From Lachnospiraceae bacterium (lineage in GTDB: Bacteria; Bacillota; Clostridia; Lachnospirales; Lachnospiraceae): a stretch of DNA of 43,389 nt. Position numbers and translations under genes: made by a program. Below, one piece after another: positions 16,024 through 19,924 of this stretch (position 1 is the stretch's first letter; each line of letters starts with the position of its first letter). Where the stretch lies: NCBI GenBank assembly GCA_017484135.1, contig JAFUTQ010000063.1, positions 1-43,389 of the forward strand, read 5' to 3'. Below the pieces are notes generated by a model, which saw only the letters and a list, made by a program, of their open reading frames with translations, searched no databases and was not told the DNA's origin.

Positions 16024-16440
16024 TTCTTCCTCCATGATACAACAACGGCTCGATCACAGGCTCTGCCTGTCAATCCCGGTTGCTGTGATCTTTTTCTTAA
16101 TAAACTGTATACGAAATTTACTCATTGGTGCCATAAAAGGCGAAATTTATTTCCCGTGACATCAACTGGAGTCCGTTGAAAAAATCTTTGTTGTATTTTT
16201 CAGCAAGTATAAGACCTCCCTCTGCGTATAGAAGAACGATACGGCATGGAAAAACTGCAATTTTATCGGTTCGTTTCTTATTTATATATGTATCGTTCGT
16301 TTTTGACCGTATCAATCATACTATTTGTTCCTCCCCTATGTCAATTGCATCTTTTGATTTTTTGTAAAGTATTCTCATAGTTTGCATTTTGTTGTATAAT
16401 AATAAAAAACAGCGACAGATCGAAAGGACATTTCGGAACG
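16024..16440. other. Long gene-free interval with divergent promoters and a leader hairpin
   Basis: On the minus strand a promoter at 16344-16315 predicts a leader of about 285 nt before the permease. On the plus strand TTCTCA (16372-16377), 17 bp and TATAAT (16395-16400) serve the gene at 16441. Inside the leader, GATCACAG (16052-16059) and CTGTGATC (16083-16090) form a stem enclosing 23 bases close to the permease start. No known riboswitch class was recognised. Confidence 0.5.
16315..16344 (-). promoter_or_regulatory. Promoter of the permease/kinase-like operon
   Basis: On the minus strand TTGACA (16344-16339), an 18-bp spacer and TATGAT (16320-16315). The predicted transcript starts near 16308. 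Confidence 0.55.
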
Positions 16441-16638
16441 ATGAAATATGAAGAGCTGCAGGATGGCATGAAGGTGATCGATACGGATGACGGCATGGTC
16501 ATGGAGTATCAGAAAACGGAACAGACGGATTTTTTCTGCTCGGACAAGGCAAAATGGCATGTATGTCAGTTTGACCTGTCCACCTTTGAACCGTATGCCG
16601 GAGAGTTGAAACCGGGACAACTGGAAAAAAGAAAGTAA
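16441..16638 (+). CDS. Small uncharacterised protein
   Basis: A 65-residue acidic/aromatic protein (MKYEELQDGMKVIDTDDGMVMEY...). I recognise no family. The preceding TATAAT at 16395-16400 and an AAAGGA site support expression. It is followed by two Cys-rich small genes in the same direction with short gaps, so they may form one unit. Two cysteines are present, without a clear metal motif. Confidence 0.6.
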   Translation: MKYEELQDGMKVIDTDDGMVMEYQKTEQTDFFCSDKAKWHVCQFDLSTFEPYAGELKPGQLEKRK

Positions 16639-16669
16639 CTGTTTCGCATTTTTGCAGAAGGAGACCAGG

Positions 16670-16894
16670 ATGGAGATCAAATCGTTACTCATAAAGGACA
16701 CGACCCGCGAGGAGCGGATACAGATTGTACAGCAGGGACTGAACCAATGCGGCGGAGCCTGTGATTTTTGCAATGGCTGCGACAATTTAGGAGGCGGATC
16801 GGTAGATGCATTTTATGAGCCATACATCAATGGCGAGAAGGAGCTGCGCCAGCTGAACGAGGAGTATATGAGCAACTCAGGTATGGTACATTAG
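16670..16894 (+). CDS. Small Cys-rich protein, paralogue A
   Basis: A 74-residue protein with the cluster CGGACDFCNGC at about 27-37, suited to binding zinc or an iron-sulfur cluster. The layout TREERIQIV...C...CDFCNGC...Y.PYINGEKEL parallels the next gene, so the two look like paralogues. ATG 16670 follows AAGGAGA. Function unknown. Its position just upstream of the unusual tRNA-Cys-like gene is noted. Confidence 0.7.
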   Translation: MEIKSLLIKDTTREERIQIVQQGLNQCGGACDFCNGCDNLGGGSVDAFYEPYINGEKELRQLNEEYMSNSGMVH

Positions 16895-16902
16895 GAGGAG
16901 CT

Positions 16903-17097
16903 ATGAGACCACCGGAAATCGAACATTCCACAAGAGAGGAAAGACAACAGTATATCCGGGAGACCTTTCCGTGTATTGCGGATTGTGATATGTGTGGACT
17001 TTGCGTGGTTTTTCGTGGAAAAGACCCGGAGGTTGCATACAAGGATTATATCGATGGAATACGGGGATACATGGAGGTATCCGGGGATTACAGATAA
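16903..17097 (+). CDS. Small Cys-rich protein, paralogue B
   Basis: A 64-residue protein with CIADCDMCGLC at about 24-34, in the same register as paralogue A, followed by Y.DYIDGIRGY. It starts eight bases after the previous stop, behind TTAGGAGGA, so the two are translated from one message. Four closely spaced cysteines suggest a metal or cluster site. No known family recognised. Confidence 0.7.
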   Translation: MRPPEIEHSTREERQQYIRETFPCIADCDMCGLCVVFRGKDPEVAYKDYIDGIRGYMEVSGDYR

Positions 17098-17100
17098 CCC

Positions 17101-17129
17101 TTGACAGAGCACAAAAAAAGGGTTATCAT
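17101..17129 (+). promoter_or_regulatory. Promoter ahead of the tRNA-Cys-like gene
   Basis: TTGACA (17101-17106), a 17-bp spacer and TATCAT (17124-17129). The predicted start near 17136 lies 54 bases before the tRNA. No terminator separates the tRNA from the sulfurtransferase gene at 17289. Confidence 0.7.
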
Positions 17130-17189
17130 TTTATTTGTTCATATAGCCTATTAAAATAGTAGGAAAAGTATGAAAATAAAAAATTATCG

Positions 17190-17259
17190 GACGCCGTGGC
17201 CGTTGGAATGGCATAGGCTTGCAAAGCTGAAGTTGTTGGTTCGAATCCAACCGGTGTCA
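17190..17259 (+). tRNA. Unusual tRNA-Cys-like gene (anticodon GCA)
   Basis: The cloverleaf can be drawn fully. Acceptor GACGCCG pairs with CGGTGTC with one G-U. The D-stem is GCC/GGC, the anticodon loop is TTGCAAA with GCA, and the T-arm is GTTGG/CCAAC around TTCGAAT. Two features depart from a normal tRNA-Cys. The anticodon stem TAGGC/GCTGA holds an A-G mismatch and a G-U pair. The discriminator base is A (17259) instead of the U73 used as a major CysRS identity element. CCA is not encoded (ACTA follows). It may be a minor or repurposed cysteine tRNA, or a decaying copy. Confidence 0.75.
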
Positions 17260-17288
17260 CTACATGCATTGTTTACAGGAGGATAGGT

Positions 17289-18329
17289 ATGTCGGAAGAA
17301 AAAGTGCAGTCAGTTACCATAGAGGAATTTCGAAAGCTTGATTTTTCCAATGTGACCTTAGTTGACTTAAGAGAACCGGACGAGGTGCTGATCAAGGGCA
17401 TCGAAGGCGCCATCAACATTCCCTTCAGCAAAATTTCCAGTGATCTGAGCAGTCTGCCAAAGGAAAAACCGATCTATGTATTTTGCAGAACGGGTGATTT
17501 CAGTGAGGAAGTGACAGAAATTTTGCTTGACCGAGGCTATCAGGCTTACAATGTGGAAGGGGGCTACGAGGCTTACCAAAAGTATCTGGAGGAGCATCCG
17601 GTACGGATCGATGCGAAGGGACTCAAGTGCCCGGGTCCCATCGTGAAGGTGGCTGACACGCTCCGGGGATTGCCGGACGGGCAAAAAATCTTCGTGGAAG
17701 CGACTGAGGATGCCTTTGCGTCTGACATTCAGGTGTGGTGTGAGCGGACCGGGAATCAATTACTTTCGTTGGAGGTAAAGCCCGGACTGATTGAGGCGAC
17801 GATTGAAAAAAGTCAGACAAATAAAAAGAGCGAGACGGTGCAGGGATTTGCGGAGCTTCCAAACGGCAAGACCTTCGTCGTTTTCAGCGGAGACCTTGAC
17901 AAGACCATCGCGGCTTTTATCATGGCAAACGGCGCGGCAGCCATGGGAAGAGAGGTCACGATCTTCTTTACCTTTTGGGGGCTCAACATTCTCAGAAAAC
18001 CGAAAAAGGTAAAGGTAAAAAAATCCCTTGTTGAAAAAATGTTTGGCTTTATGCTGCCGAGAGGAACCACCAGGCTGGGGCTCTCCCGGATGAACATGGG
18101 AGGCATGGGGGCGAAGATGATCCGCTGGATCATGAAGGAGCACAATATCCAGTCTCTGGAGGAACTGATTCAGCAGGCGATAGACCACGGGGTTCGGCTG
18201 GTCGCCTGTCAGATGTCCATGGAAATCATGGGAATCCGTCAGGAGGAGCTCATTGACGGCATTGAGCTGGGAGGGGTTGCGACCTTCCTGGGCTCCGGCG
18301 AGAAATCGGATATGAGCTTATTTATTTAG
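17289..18329 (+). CDS. Rhodanese-TusA-DsrE three-domain sulfur relay protein
   Basis: A 346-residue fusion. The rhodanese domain (about 5-100) has its active cysteine at 66 in VFCRTGDF. The TusA domain (about 104-175) has Cys114 in GLKCPGPIVKV. The DsrE/DsrH-like domain (about 185-346) has LDKTIAAFIMANGAAAMG and Cys307 in RLVACQMSMEIMG. Each domain can carry a persulfide, so the protein could hand sulfur along three cysteines. The same domain set is known as the C-terminal part of CoA-disulfide-reductase-like proteins; here the flavin domain is absent. GGAGG precedes the start. It lies 29 bases after the tRNA-Cys-like gene, probably on the same transcript. Confidence 0.9.
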   Translation: MSEEKVQSVTIEEFRKLDFSNVTLVDLREPDEVLIKGIEGAINIPFSKISSDLSSLPKEKPIYVFCRTGDFSEEVTEILLDRGYQAYNVEGGYEAYQKYLEEHPVRIDAKGLKCPGPIVKVADTLRGLPDGQKIFVEATEDAFASDIQVWCERTGNQLLSLEVKPGLIEATIEKSQTNKKSETVQGFAELPNGKTFVVFSGDLDKTIAAFIMANGAAAMGREVTIFFTFWGLNILRKPKKVKVKKSLVEKMFGFMLPRGTTRLGLSRMNMGGMGAKMIRWIMKEHNIQSLEELIQQAIDHGVRLVACQMSMEIMGIRQEELIDGIELGGVATFLGSGEKSDMSLFI

Positions 18330-18345
18330 AATGAGGTGAAATCAG

Positions 18346-19023
18346 ATGAAGTTTCAGGTACAGCAGGAGGTTTTGGACAGTGGGGTCAAGATTATCTTTG
18401 CGGTAATCCATGGTCTTGACAATACAAAGGTAAGCCCGGAGTGGGAAGCATATCGGAACAAAAGGCTGGAGGAGCTCTATCGAACATATGAAGGAATCGA
18501 TGTCCATCAGGATCCGATTCTCGAGGGCTTTCATATTTTGCATGACAAGACCGGAGTAAAGAGAAGAAAGAATATTCCGGCAAGCGAGAACCTGATCCGG
18601 CTGCTGTTGAAAAATCACGGGATGGCGTTCATTAATCAGGCGGTGGATATCTACAACCTGATCTCTCTGGAAAGCAAACTTGCGCTTGGTGCCCACAACA
18701 TCGATCATGTAGACGGAGACGTGACGCTCAGGTTTACGGACGGAACGGAAAAATTTATCCCGCTGGGGCAGCAGGAGCCCGTTCCGGTAAATGCGCATGA
18801 ATACAGCTATTGTGACGATGCCAATGAGATCTTGTGCCGGCTGGAGATCCGACAGGTCAATAAGACTCTGGTAGATGAGGCCGCAAAAAATGTGTTTTAT
18901 ATCGTGCAGGGAAATGAGGCTACGACCGAGGACTATCTGAAAGAGGTGGCACAGAGGATCATTGATACCACAGTGAACTATTGCGGAGGAACGGGAGAGA
19001 TCGTGGTTCCGGAGGTTGTTTAG
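18346..19023 (+). CDS. Free-standing B3/B4 domain protein (PheRS-beta-like)
   Basis: A 225-residue protein matching the B3/B4 domain of phenylalanyl-tRNA synthetase beta chain as a separate protein (COG3382). Characteristic blocks are NIPASENLIRLLLKNHG, AVDIYNLISLESKLALGAHNID and EILCRLEIRQVNKTLVDEAAKN. In PheRS this fold hydrolyses mischarged tRNA. Free-standing versions are widespread, but their substrate is unclear. It starts 16 bases after the sulfur relay gene, behind GAGGTG, so both form an operon with the tRNA-Cys-like gene. A role in tRNA quality control is inference. Confidence 0.85.
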   Translation: MKFQVQQEVLDSGVKIIFAVIHGLDNTKVSPEWEAYRNKRLEELYRTYEGIDVHQDPILEGFHILHDKTGVKRRKNIPASENLIRLLLKNHGMAFINQAVDIYNLISLESKLALGAHNIDHVDGDVTLRFTDGTEKFIPLGQQEPVPVNAHEYSYCDDANEILCRLEIRQVNKTLVDEAAKNVFYIVQGNEATTEDYLKEVAQRIIDTTVNYCGGTGEIVVPEVV

Positions 19024-19065
19024 GGGCAAAATTAAAAAAAGAAGTAAAAAAATGGAAAGATGGGA

Positions 19066-19094
19066 TTGAAAAATCCGTGGCTTTGTGATACAGT
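19066..19094 (+). promoter_or_regulatory. Possible promoter of the FliD-like gene
   Basis: TTGAAA (19066-19071), a 17-bp spacer and TACAGT (19089-19094). The -10 box is weak. Confidence 0.4.
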
Positions 19095-19162
19095 AAATGT
19101 ATCTAGGTAGATAGATGCGTTGACAAGGATGTCACAGAAAAAAATTCAAAGGAGTGATGATT

Positions 19163-19924
19163 ATGGCAGGAATTTCAGGGTACGATTCCAGCTCCATCAG
19201 TACATTGTTTGCAGGGCTCAACAACAACTCGAACAGCAGCAGTGGACTGAACGGCTTGTTTGGAATCAGCATTACAGACTACAACACGATCCGGAGCGGC
19301 TCTTATTCCAAGCTGATGAAGGCCTACTATTCAGAGGGTAACAGTTCGTCAAAGACCGCAAGCTCTACGTCCACATCAAAGGATGCATCCAAGGTTCTGG
19401 CGAGAGTGGAGGATTCGGCAAAGAACTTGAAGGACTCGGCAGATGCGCTTGTTACCAGTGGGAAAAAGTCCGTATTCAACAAAGTTGAGACAAAGGATGC
19501 AGACGGCAACGTAACCAAGGATTATGACAAGGATGCGATATACAAGAAGGTCAGCGAATTTGTGAAGAATTACAATTCTCTGGTAGAGAGTGGCGGAGAT
19601 GCCAGCTCCACAGGAATCCTTACCTCGGTATCCTCCATGGTGAGACAGAGCAAGATAAATTCCGGATTGTTGGCGGATATCGGAATCACGATCGATGAGA
19701 ACAACAAGCTGAGCATCGATGAGGAGGAGTTTAAGGGAGCTGACATGACCAAGGTGAAATCTTTGTTCAACGGCACCGGCTCTTACGGATATCAGGTTTC
19801 CGCACAGGCATCCATGGCAAACTTCCATGCTGAGAGAGAGGCTGCAAAGGCCAACACATACAGCAATAAGGGATTATACACTTACAATTATTCGACTGGT
19901 GAGATTTACAATTCCTATACCTAG
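19163..19924 (+). CDS. FliD-like (flagellar cap C-terminal region-like) protein
   Basis: A 253-residue Ser/Asn/Lys-rich protein. The segment YKKVSEFVKNYNSLVESGG and the later LLADIGITIDENNKLSIDEEEF with KVKSLFNG resemble the C-terminal part of flagellar cap protein FliD. The large D2/D3 domains of a full cap are missing. ATG 19163 is chosen because AAAGGAG lies eight bases upstream; GTG 19154 and ATG 19157 overlap that site. No other flagellar gene is nearby. It may be an accessory filament protein or a secreted FliD derivative. Confidence 0.65.
   Translation: MAGISGYDSSSISTLFAGLNNNSNSSSGLNGLFGISITDYNTIRSGSYSKLMKAYYSEGNSSSKTASSTSTSKDASKVLARVEDSAKNLKDSADALVTSGKKSVFNKVETKDADGNVTKDYDKDAIYKKVSEFVKNYNSLVESGGDASSTGILTSVSSMVRQSKINSGLLADIGITIDENNKLSIDEEEFKGADMTKVKSLFNGTGSYGYQVSAQASMANFHAEREAAKANTYSNKGLYTYNYSTGEIYNSYT

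Follow-up and report, generated by a model that had tools for sequence, protein, structure and literature searches.

A tRNA-Cys-like gene in a Lachnospiraceae contig

The DNA analyzed here (hereafter the window) is a stretch of 43,389 nucleotides (nt) from contig JAFUTQ010000063.1 of the Lachnospiraceae bacterium assembly GCA_017484135.1, and it carries a transfer RNA (tRNA) gene with a cysteine anticodon ahead of the genes for a rhodanese-TusA-DsrE2 fusion protein and a free-standing B3/4-domain protein (Table 1). ARAGORN labels this gene tRNA-Cys(GCA) (17190-17260, + strand), and Rfam RF00005 matches it with 46.7 bits against a cut-off of 29. The sequence comparisons presented below suggest that it is a hitherto undescribed RNA used when cysteine runs short.

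A first-pass annotation, made from the sequence alone, had proposed a GCA-anticodon tRNA followed by a rhodanese-TusA-DsrE fusion and a B3/B4 protein with no intervening terminator; ARAGORN, Rfam and Pfam bear out the three genes, and a simple scan of 16300-19200 found no + strand terminator. The two related cysteine-rich miniproteins that it placed upstream are also present: both open reading frames (ORFs) share a C-x3-C-x2-C-x2-C core with Y-I-[ND]-G further on, and neither has a Pfam or NCBIfam match at E 0.1. The “strong promoter” of that annotation is a near-consensus match that by itself is little proof: five such sites occur in these 2.9 kb, where shuffled sequence gives 3.7 on average. 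An 8-base-pair inverted repeat (GATAACCC...GGGTTATC, within 17090-17135) overlaps the promoter-like site, and a T-rich stretch comes after it; the repeat may terminate transcription of the miniprotein unit or serve as an operator.

Table 1. Features of the window around the tRNA-Cys-like gene
Feature	Position	Strand	Remarks
Two small Cys-rich ORFs	16670-16894 (74 amino acids), 16903-17097 (64 amino acids)		Upstream of promoter-like site
Sigma-70-type promoter-like TTGACA-17-TATCAT	17101-17129	+	Consensus match only, 11/12 positions
Palindrome CCTATTAAAATAGTAGG, candidate CymR-type operator	17147-17163	+	Between promoter-like site and tRNA
tRNA-Cys-like RNA, 70 nt	17190-17259	+	A73 discriminator at 17259; GCA anticodon 17221-17223; CCA not encoded
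3' trailer CT	17260-17261	+	Directly after A73
Rhodanese-TusA-DsrE2 fusion	17289-18329	+	Pfam PF00581, PF01206, PF13686; starts 29 nt past tRNA
Free-standing B3/4-domain protein	18346-19023	+	PF03483, 71.4 bits

The window tRNA is the second tRNA-Cys of its genome (116 contigs, 83% complete, 35 tRNA matches). A normal tRNA-Cys, for which the first-pass annotation had advised looking, was found by running ARAGORN on the tRNA-match regions (C102:31869-31939) and has U73 and an ordinary D-loop. Three other carriers of the window-type tRNA (G112, G076 and G014) likewise have an ordinary tRNA-Cys with U73. An encoded CCA is also missing from most tRNAs that ARAGORN finds in the genome of the window.

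A distinct family of tRNA-like RNAs

When 150 genomes from its own family were searched by blastn, three relatives beyond the window were recovered, and a fifth match (G117) proved to be an ordinary tRNA-Gln. The covariance model built from these four sequences gives its own members 95-98 bits and all other matches listed, from five genomes, at most 48.6 bits. Across 397 genomes of the family, 16 have a match of 88-99 bits, exactly one each, with seven other matches listed at 54-60.2 bits; among 391 genomes of the class the sole high scorer beyond the family (G683) reaches 78 bits. Searches spanning more than 40 genomes used stricter filters. We then scanned a genome collection (84,980 species by the description of the tool) with a sequence pattern and took 80 of 87 stretches as loci. 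These come from 79 genomes, and 52 of the 80 record titles name Lachnospiraceae; the remaining titles give genera or broader groups, which were not checked singly, one being Ruminiclostridium hungatei. The window tRNA is a member of a distinct RNA family found mostly in Lachnospiraceae.

In total, the searches yielded 97 loci, some genomes being counted under two handles, that correspond to 77 distinct sequences; removal of 10 G loci that duplicate L loci left 87 loci for the counts of neighboring genes. L121, which has an extra D-loop base, was excluded from the alignment (A5). In the 80 scanned loci, the search pattern itself fixes or restricts its columns 21-29, 34-42, 44-46 and much of 49-58; it placed no constraint on the acceptor stem, the D-loop, anticodon bases 34-35, position 33 or position 73. 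The RNA is close to strictly single-copy: one copy is present in 16 of 16 carriers among the family genomes and in 78 of the 79 genomes named by the scan. The sole two-copy genome, isolate HAN041, has one copy before an Rrf2-type regulator gene (L097) and the other before a nifB-like gene (L109).

Structure and identity bases

Among the 76 distinct aligned sequences, 99.6% of the cloverleaf cells are paired; seven of the 19 pairs are changed on both sides and seven never vary. Double-change cells number 137 against 35 in shuffled alignments (none of 500 as high) and at most nine when the strands are slid against each other; these compensatory double changes thus support the cloverleaf. Nearly every member retains the elbow bases (the GG of the D-loop and the T-loop), and the acceptor/T-arm, the elbow bases and a U-rich 3' trailer are all present, as in a precursor tRNA for the ribonucleases (RNases) P and Z.

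The family departs from ordinary tRNA-Cys at several positions. The discriminator base 73 is A in 41, G in 35 and T in one of the 77 distinct sequences, that is, a purine (R73) in 76, whereas U73 occurs in all 16 distinct ordinary tRNA-Cys. Only three bases, mostly G-Y-N, separate the D-stem from the GG pair, which means that A14 and R15 are missing; by-eye reading finds both kept in all 16 ordinary tRNA-Cys. Position 33 is C in 13 and U in 64 of the 77 (U in the window), compared with T33 in all 156 ordinary tRNAs examined, some of which are identical. All four model sequences have an A28xG42 mismatch, as do all members of the later set, which the pattern had partly selected for it. At the same time, the anticodon, with bases 34 and 35 free in the search, is GCA in 73, ACA in three and GAA in one. 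U73 and GCA are given as the major cysteine determinants in E. coli and yeast (PMC9976931). A tRNA with R73 would thus be expected to be a poor substrate of cysteinyl-tRNA synthetase (CysRS), and GCA would leave it a CysRS ligand that could pair with Cys codons. The ACA anticodon of L088 (G365), L106 and L154 would still be able to pair with the Cys codon UGU.

Two diverged forms, both scoring below the clear range of the covariance model, extend the picture. That of G147 (60.2 bits, G73) lies between genes that sequence reading names as a SulP-like transporter and a JAMM-type protein. That of G268 (50.8 bits, A73) has an ordinary-type D-loop; it is preceded by a similar hairpin, followed directly by a NifS-like gene and shares its contig with a cysK-nifB cluster. 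Since both combine a purine at 73 with a sulfur context, these two traits may be older than the short D-loop. The Ruminiclostridium hungatei copy (L095, 3494-3563) has lost U8, one G of the D-loop pair, U54 and C35 and carries the GAA anticodon; it still precedes a nifH-like operon and is perhaps a decaying copy.

Location in sulfur-assimilation operons

A gene for one of 11 sulfur reference proteins, which were picked from the neighbors of the tRNA-like loci themselves, lies within 1.5 kb at 72 of the 87 loci as opposed to none of 33 ordinary tRNA-Cys loci, 26 of which come from outside the family of the window. As a fairer control, ordinary tRNA-Cys of carrier genomes were taken in, and none has such a gene nearby (0 of 4, two of these stretches being shortened by contig ends), which makes 0 of 37 in all. 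Clustering of the neighbors at the 87 loci, with Pfam and NCBIfam scans of some representatives, identified cysteine synthase, a NifB-like radical S-adenosylmethionine protein, a Nitro_FeMo-Co protein, NifH and NifD-like proteins, a Cys/Met pyridoxal-phosphate enzyme, a class-II glutamine amidotransferase, LysR and CymR-like Rrf2 regulators and metK. A DUF2292 neighbor bears a weak likeness to OscA, a protein of sulfur starvation (28 bits, cut-off 85). Further neighbors, without a family match, are presumably GshA, SsuA/B/C, MalY and NifS, as we read their sequences.

The commonest order is cysK, the DUF2292 gene, a hairpin with a T-run, the tRNA, nifB-like, nifX, nifH, cysK and nifD-like; at other loci, including the window, the tRNA is the first unit behind a promoter. 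At L101, L113 and L118 the hairpin with a T-run behind cysK-DUF2292 (of the ACCAGAGGTTTTG...CCTCTGGTTTTTT type) abuts the first base of the tRNA, and a like hairpin is present at L211, a tRNA-free locus. The NifB-like gene is found in the L102 region and in 46 of the 397 family genomes; in carriers it stands in a nitrogenase-like nifB-nifX-nifH-cysK-nifD-like cluster tied to cysteine synthase, which may encode a sulfur-salvage reductase.

A palindrome common to the tRNA and cysteine synthase genes

Within the 150 nt preceding the tRNA, the palindrome CCTA-N9-TAGG is present at 8 of the 31 loci without an adjacent upstream cysK (mean 0.04 and maximum 1 in shuffles). It is also present within the 200 nt preceding 14 of 48 cysK genes (mean 0.06 and maximum 2 in shuffles); the count covers 79 of the 87 loci, the others being too short upstream. 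In the genome of the window, the exact form CCTAYN6AGTAGG is found only at the window site, as against three occurrences of the backward control pattern. Since the palindrome precedes both, a common operator seems to serve the tRNA and cysteine synthesis in some family members. Some neighborhoods encode a CymR-like Rrf2 protein (138 bits, under the curated cut-off of 195). CymR is described as a cysteine repressor that acts with CysK (PMC3828012), and a CymR-type protein is our candidate for the regulator at this palindrome.

Evidence for a free RNA

Conservation ends about three bases past the tRNA: among 75 sequences, T is found at +1 in 61, at +2 in 68 and at +3 in 40, and a TT trailer is present in 56, compared with 4-16 at later steps. 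A downstream U helps RNase Z, and a U-rich trailer as the only constraint is what its removal by this enzyme would lead one to expect. These 75 sequences hold no conserved expression platform between the tRNA and the following gene, and the distance to that gene varies widely among the loci listed, often being some 26-150 nt to the start codon. A leader that sequesters the ribosome-binding site was therefore rejected, there being no conserved region past the trailer among those loci.

The same operons also occur without the tRNA. L211 has the order cysK, DUF2292, hairpin and nifB with no tRNA, and its NifB is 92% identical to that of L102; L212, L218 and L221 are tRNA-free as well, and the covariance model finds the tRNA at nine of 30 NifB loci. 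Among the 397 family genomes the tRNA is present in 10 of the 46 with a NifB-like gene versus six of the 351 without one. Taken together, the conserved ends, the variable distance, the single copy and the tRNA-free versions of the same operon point to a free RNA that acts in trans.

Proposed function and its alternatives

We tentatively favor a model, short of considering it probable, in which sulfur starvation induces a non-canonical tRNA that is excised from its transcript and acts in trans as a decoy of tRNA-Cys. When cysteine is scarce, a CymR-type repressor would release its operator, allowing transcription of the sulfur operon, whose leader or one of whose intergenic regions contains the tRNA; RNase P and RNase Z would then excise the tRNA, and CCA would be added. 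With its purine at 73 and its retained elbow, acceptor arm and Cys anticodon, the product would be bound by CysRS and charged poorly, so that as a non-productive CysRS ligand, as a poorly charged reader of Cys codons or as both, it would slow the use of cysteine by translation. A single CysRS is encoded in each of 40 genomes, 18 of which have the tRNA or a diverged form, and this argues against a dedicated charging enzyme of the CysRS family; a dedicated second CysRS was rejected on this count. The CysRS proteins of these 40 genomes fall into two score groups against PF01406 (437-463 and 304-353 bits), and carriers of the tRNA are found in both. More broadly, the RNA could represent a hitherto unrecognized kind of tRNA with a regulatory or recoding role, a notion we hold with no more assurance than the decoy model: one with a Cys anticodon that by design would not be charged with cysteine, would belong to a cysteine-starvation regulon and in trans would either brake CysRS and Cys-codon translation or insert a sulfur-free residue at Cys codons and so save sulfur.

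Several observations weigh against this reading. The conservation of GCA could fit normal decoding equally well, U33 is retained in 64 of 77 sequences, and the A34 (3 of 77) and GAA (1 of 77) variants would be unsuited to CysRS binding. No match of this kind was found in 381 of the 397 family genomes, including two of the same genus, and the presence of the tRNA in only 16 of them together with its absence from 36 of the 46 that have a NifB-like gene implies that it is dispensable. The full palindrome is confined to the 8 of 31 and 14 of 48 upstream regions given above. The contrast between 72 of 87 and 0 of 33 loci is partly built in, since the queries were taken from the tRNA's own neighbors and the controls mostly from other families. 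Furthermore, 15 of the 87 loci have none of the 11 reference proteins nearby: some of these are sulfur-related anyway, namely those with metK (L135, G153), with ThiS-ThiF and homocysteine methyltransferase (L148) and with the rhodanese-TusA protein of the window, and others are not obviously so, with LacI (L122, L131), NadA (L137), a MIF-family protein (L168) or an M20 peptidase (L100) as neighbors.

The boldest rival, which we consider unlikely, is an alternative decoder: another synthetase would load the excised tRNA with an amino acid that lacks sulfur, and Cys codons would be read without cysteine in a programmed substitution. The retention of an anticodon that pairs with Cys codons in 76 of 77 sequences (GCA 73, ACA 3) alongside the loss of U73 speaks for it. 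So does the resemblance of A20 (60/77), C35 (76/77) and R73, itself an arginine determinant, to the arginine identity set; however, A36 is not among the arginine anticodon bases, and C33 (13/77) with the lost A14 and R15 should weaken decoding. A20 and C35 are given as arginine determinants in PMC9976931. The synthetase search covered CysRS only.

About as unlikely is an ordinary minor Cys isoacceptor that the host CysRS charges despite R73 and that only adds to the tRNA-Cys supply alongside cysteine synthesis. The GCA anticodon, the cloverleaf, U33 and A36A37A38 (the last set by the search pattern itself at most loci) would all suit such a tRNA, but R73 in 76 of 77, the loss of A14/R15 and C33 in 13 of 77 versus none of 156 ordinary tRNAs would not, and more tRNA-Cys at a time of cysteine scarcity makes little sense.

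We also doubt, a shade more strongly, that the tRNA fold is a cis-acting element of the mRNA leader that controls the downstream gene through CysRS binding or cleavage. Its frequent position shortly ahead of a start codon has precedents in thrS-type operators and in a riboswitch with a tRNA-like fold, yet the variable distance, the missing platform, the near-constant single copy per genome and the tRNA-free operons described above all count against it. The riboswitch is described in PMC9142559.

A hitchhiking or decaying functionless duplicate is improbable: its sporadic presence (16/397) and the eroded R. hungatei copy would be in keeping with one, but the compensatory changes in the stems and the confinement mostly to sulfur operons are not. 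T-boxes require only the elbow, the anticodon and NCCA, and T-box matches occur in eight of eight genomes. A role as ligand of a Cys T-box riboswitch whose T-box sequence is altered is nevertheless the least credible of all, and such a partner was rejected, as a Cys specifier codon is found in none of the 18 T-boxes aligned out of 61 matches in these genomes (the three of the window's genome included; L188 aligned poorly at the specifier) and a regular-expression pass over 30 T-box loci gave none that was clearly Cys among the 23 rows listed.

Relationship to known systems

The family resembles canonical bacterial tRNA-Cys(GCA) in its cloverleaf, 7/5 acceptor branch, anticodon and GCC/GGC D-stem, but differs from it in R73 for U73, a mostly A2-U71 pair, an 8-nt D-loop without A14/R15, the A28xG42 mismatch and its location in sulfur operons. 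Staphylococcal non-proteinogenic tRNA-Gly, which is charged with glycine for cell-wall synthesis, is possibly comparable as an isoacceptor set apart from translation, although no partner of the cell-wall type is seen here. Like T-boxes and other tRNA-linked leader RNAs, the RNA precedes genes of amino-acid metabolism; unlike them, it is itself a tRNA fold and has no conserved expression platform. Another Cys leader is described in PMC8632094.

Two groups of unusual tRNAs also invite comparison. The selC* tRNA-Cys of anaerobes is likewise a second tRNA-Cys of odd structure in a special gene context; it is described with an 8/4 branch, an A51a bulge and U73, a UCA anticodon being found in some cases and SelB* and CysRS* partners in some groups (PMC7609411). 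Membership was rejected because the present family has a 7/5 branch without the bulge and R73; it also differs in having a single CysRS. The allo-tRNAs, which are also extra non-canonical tRNAs, are described with 8/4 or 9/3 branches and serine identity (PMC7609411) and were rejected on the 7/5 branch and 4-nt variable loop, as against 8/4 or 9/3 branches with a long variable arm. A full-text literature search, read at the level of titles and abstract openings and with subscription journals outside its scope, returned no description of the RNA.

The plain tRNA-Cys label given by ARAGORN illustrates how a whole family of deviant, sulfur-wired tRNAs can stay hidden. If the RNA is indeed not charged with cysteine, it would be a tRNA that alters the behavior of Cys codons or CysRS during cysteine shortage and so would couple decoding directly to nutrient supply. 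The idea is testable, because commensals of gut and rumen that have been cultured are among the hosts; cultured carriers include Roseburia inulinivorans DSM 16841, Eubacterium ruminantium ATCC 17233 and Falcatimonas sp. MSJ-15.

Local partners in the window

The first-pass annotation had inferred a special Cys tRNA tied to sulfur metabolism, and both this and the conservation of its irregularities find support in the 77 sequences and the 72 of 87 loci. Its further suggestion of a dedicated system of tRNA, rhodanese-TusA-DsrE and B3/B4 finds no support, this gene set having turned up in none of the 29 other genomes tested. The test covered 30 genomes: that of the window, 17 more in which the tRNA or a diverged version occurs, and 12 in which neither does. 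The fusion protein has matches in four of them including its own, the other three all partial and only that of G365 near its tRNA; the B3/4 protein has matches in two including its own, the other being 31% identical and on a different contig from the tRNA. Two genomes of the same genus gave no match to the tRNA, the fusion or the B3/4 protein at the thresholds used. A conserved module of the three was thus rejected, its partners being rare in these genomes, and the fusion and B3/4 proteins are local partners rather than conserved ones. The same annotation held that the grouping would be a matter of chance if this were the sole tRNA-Cys of its genome and had freely varying neighbors: single neighbors do vary, but mostly within sulfur assimilation. 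With sulfur genes behind its tRNA, the operon of the window follows this general rule, of which the B3/4 protein is not a conserved part. In G365 the order is tRNA, cysK, ThiS/MoeB-like, NifS-like, one further ORF and rhodanese.

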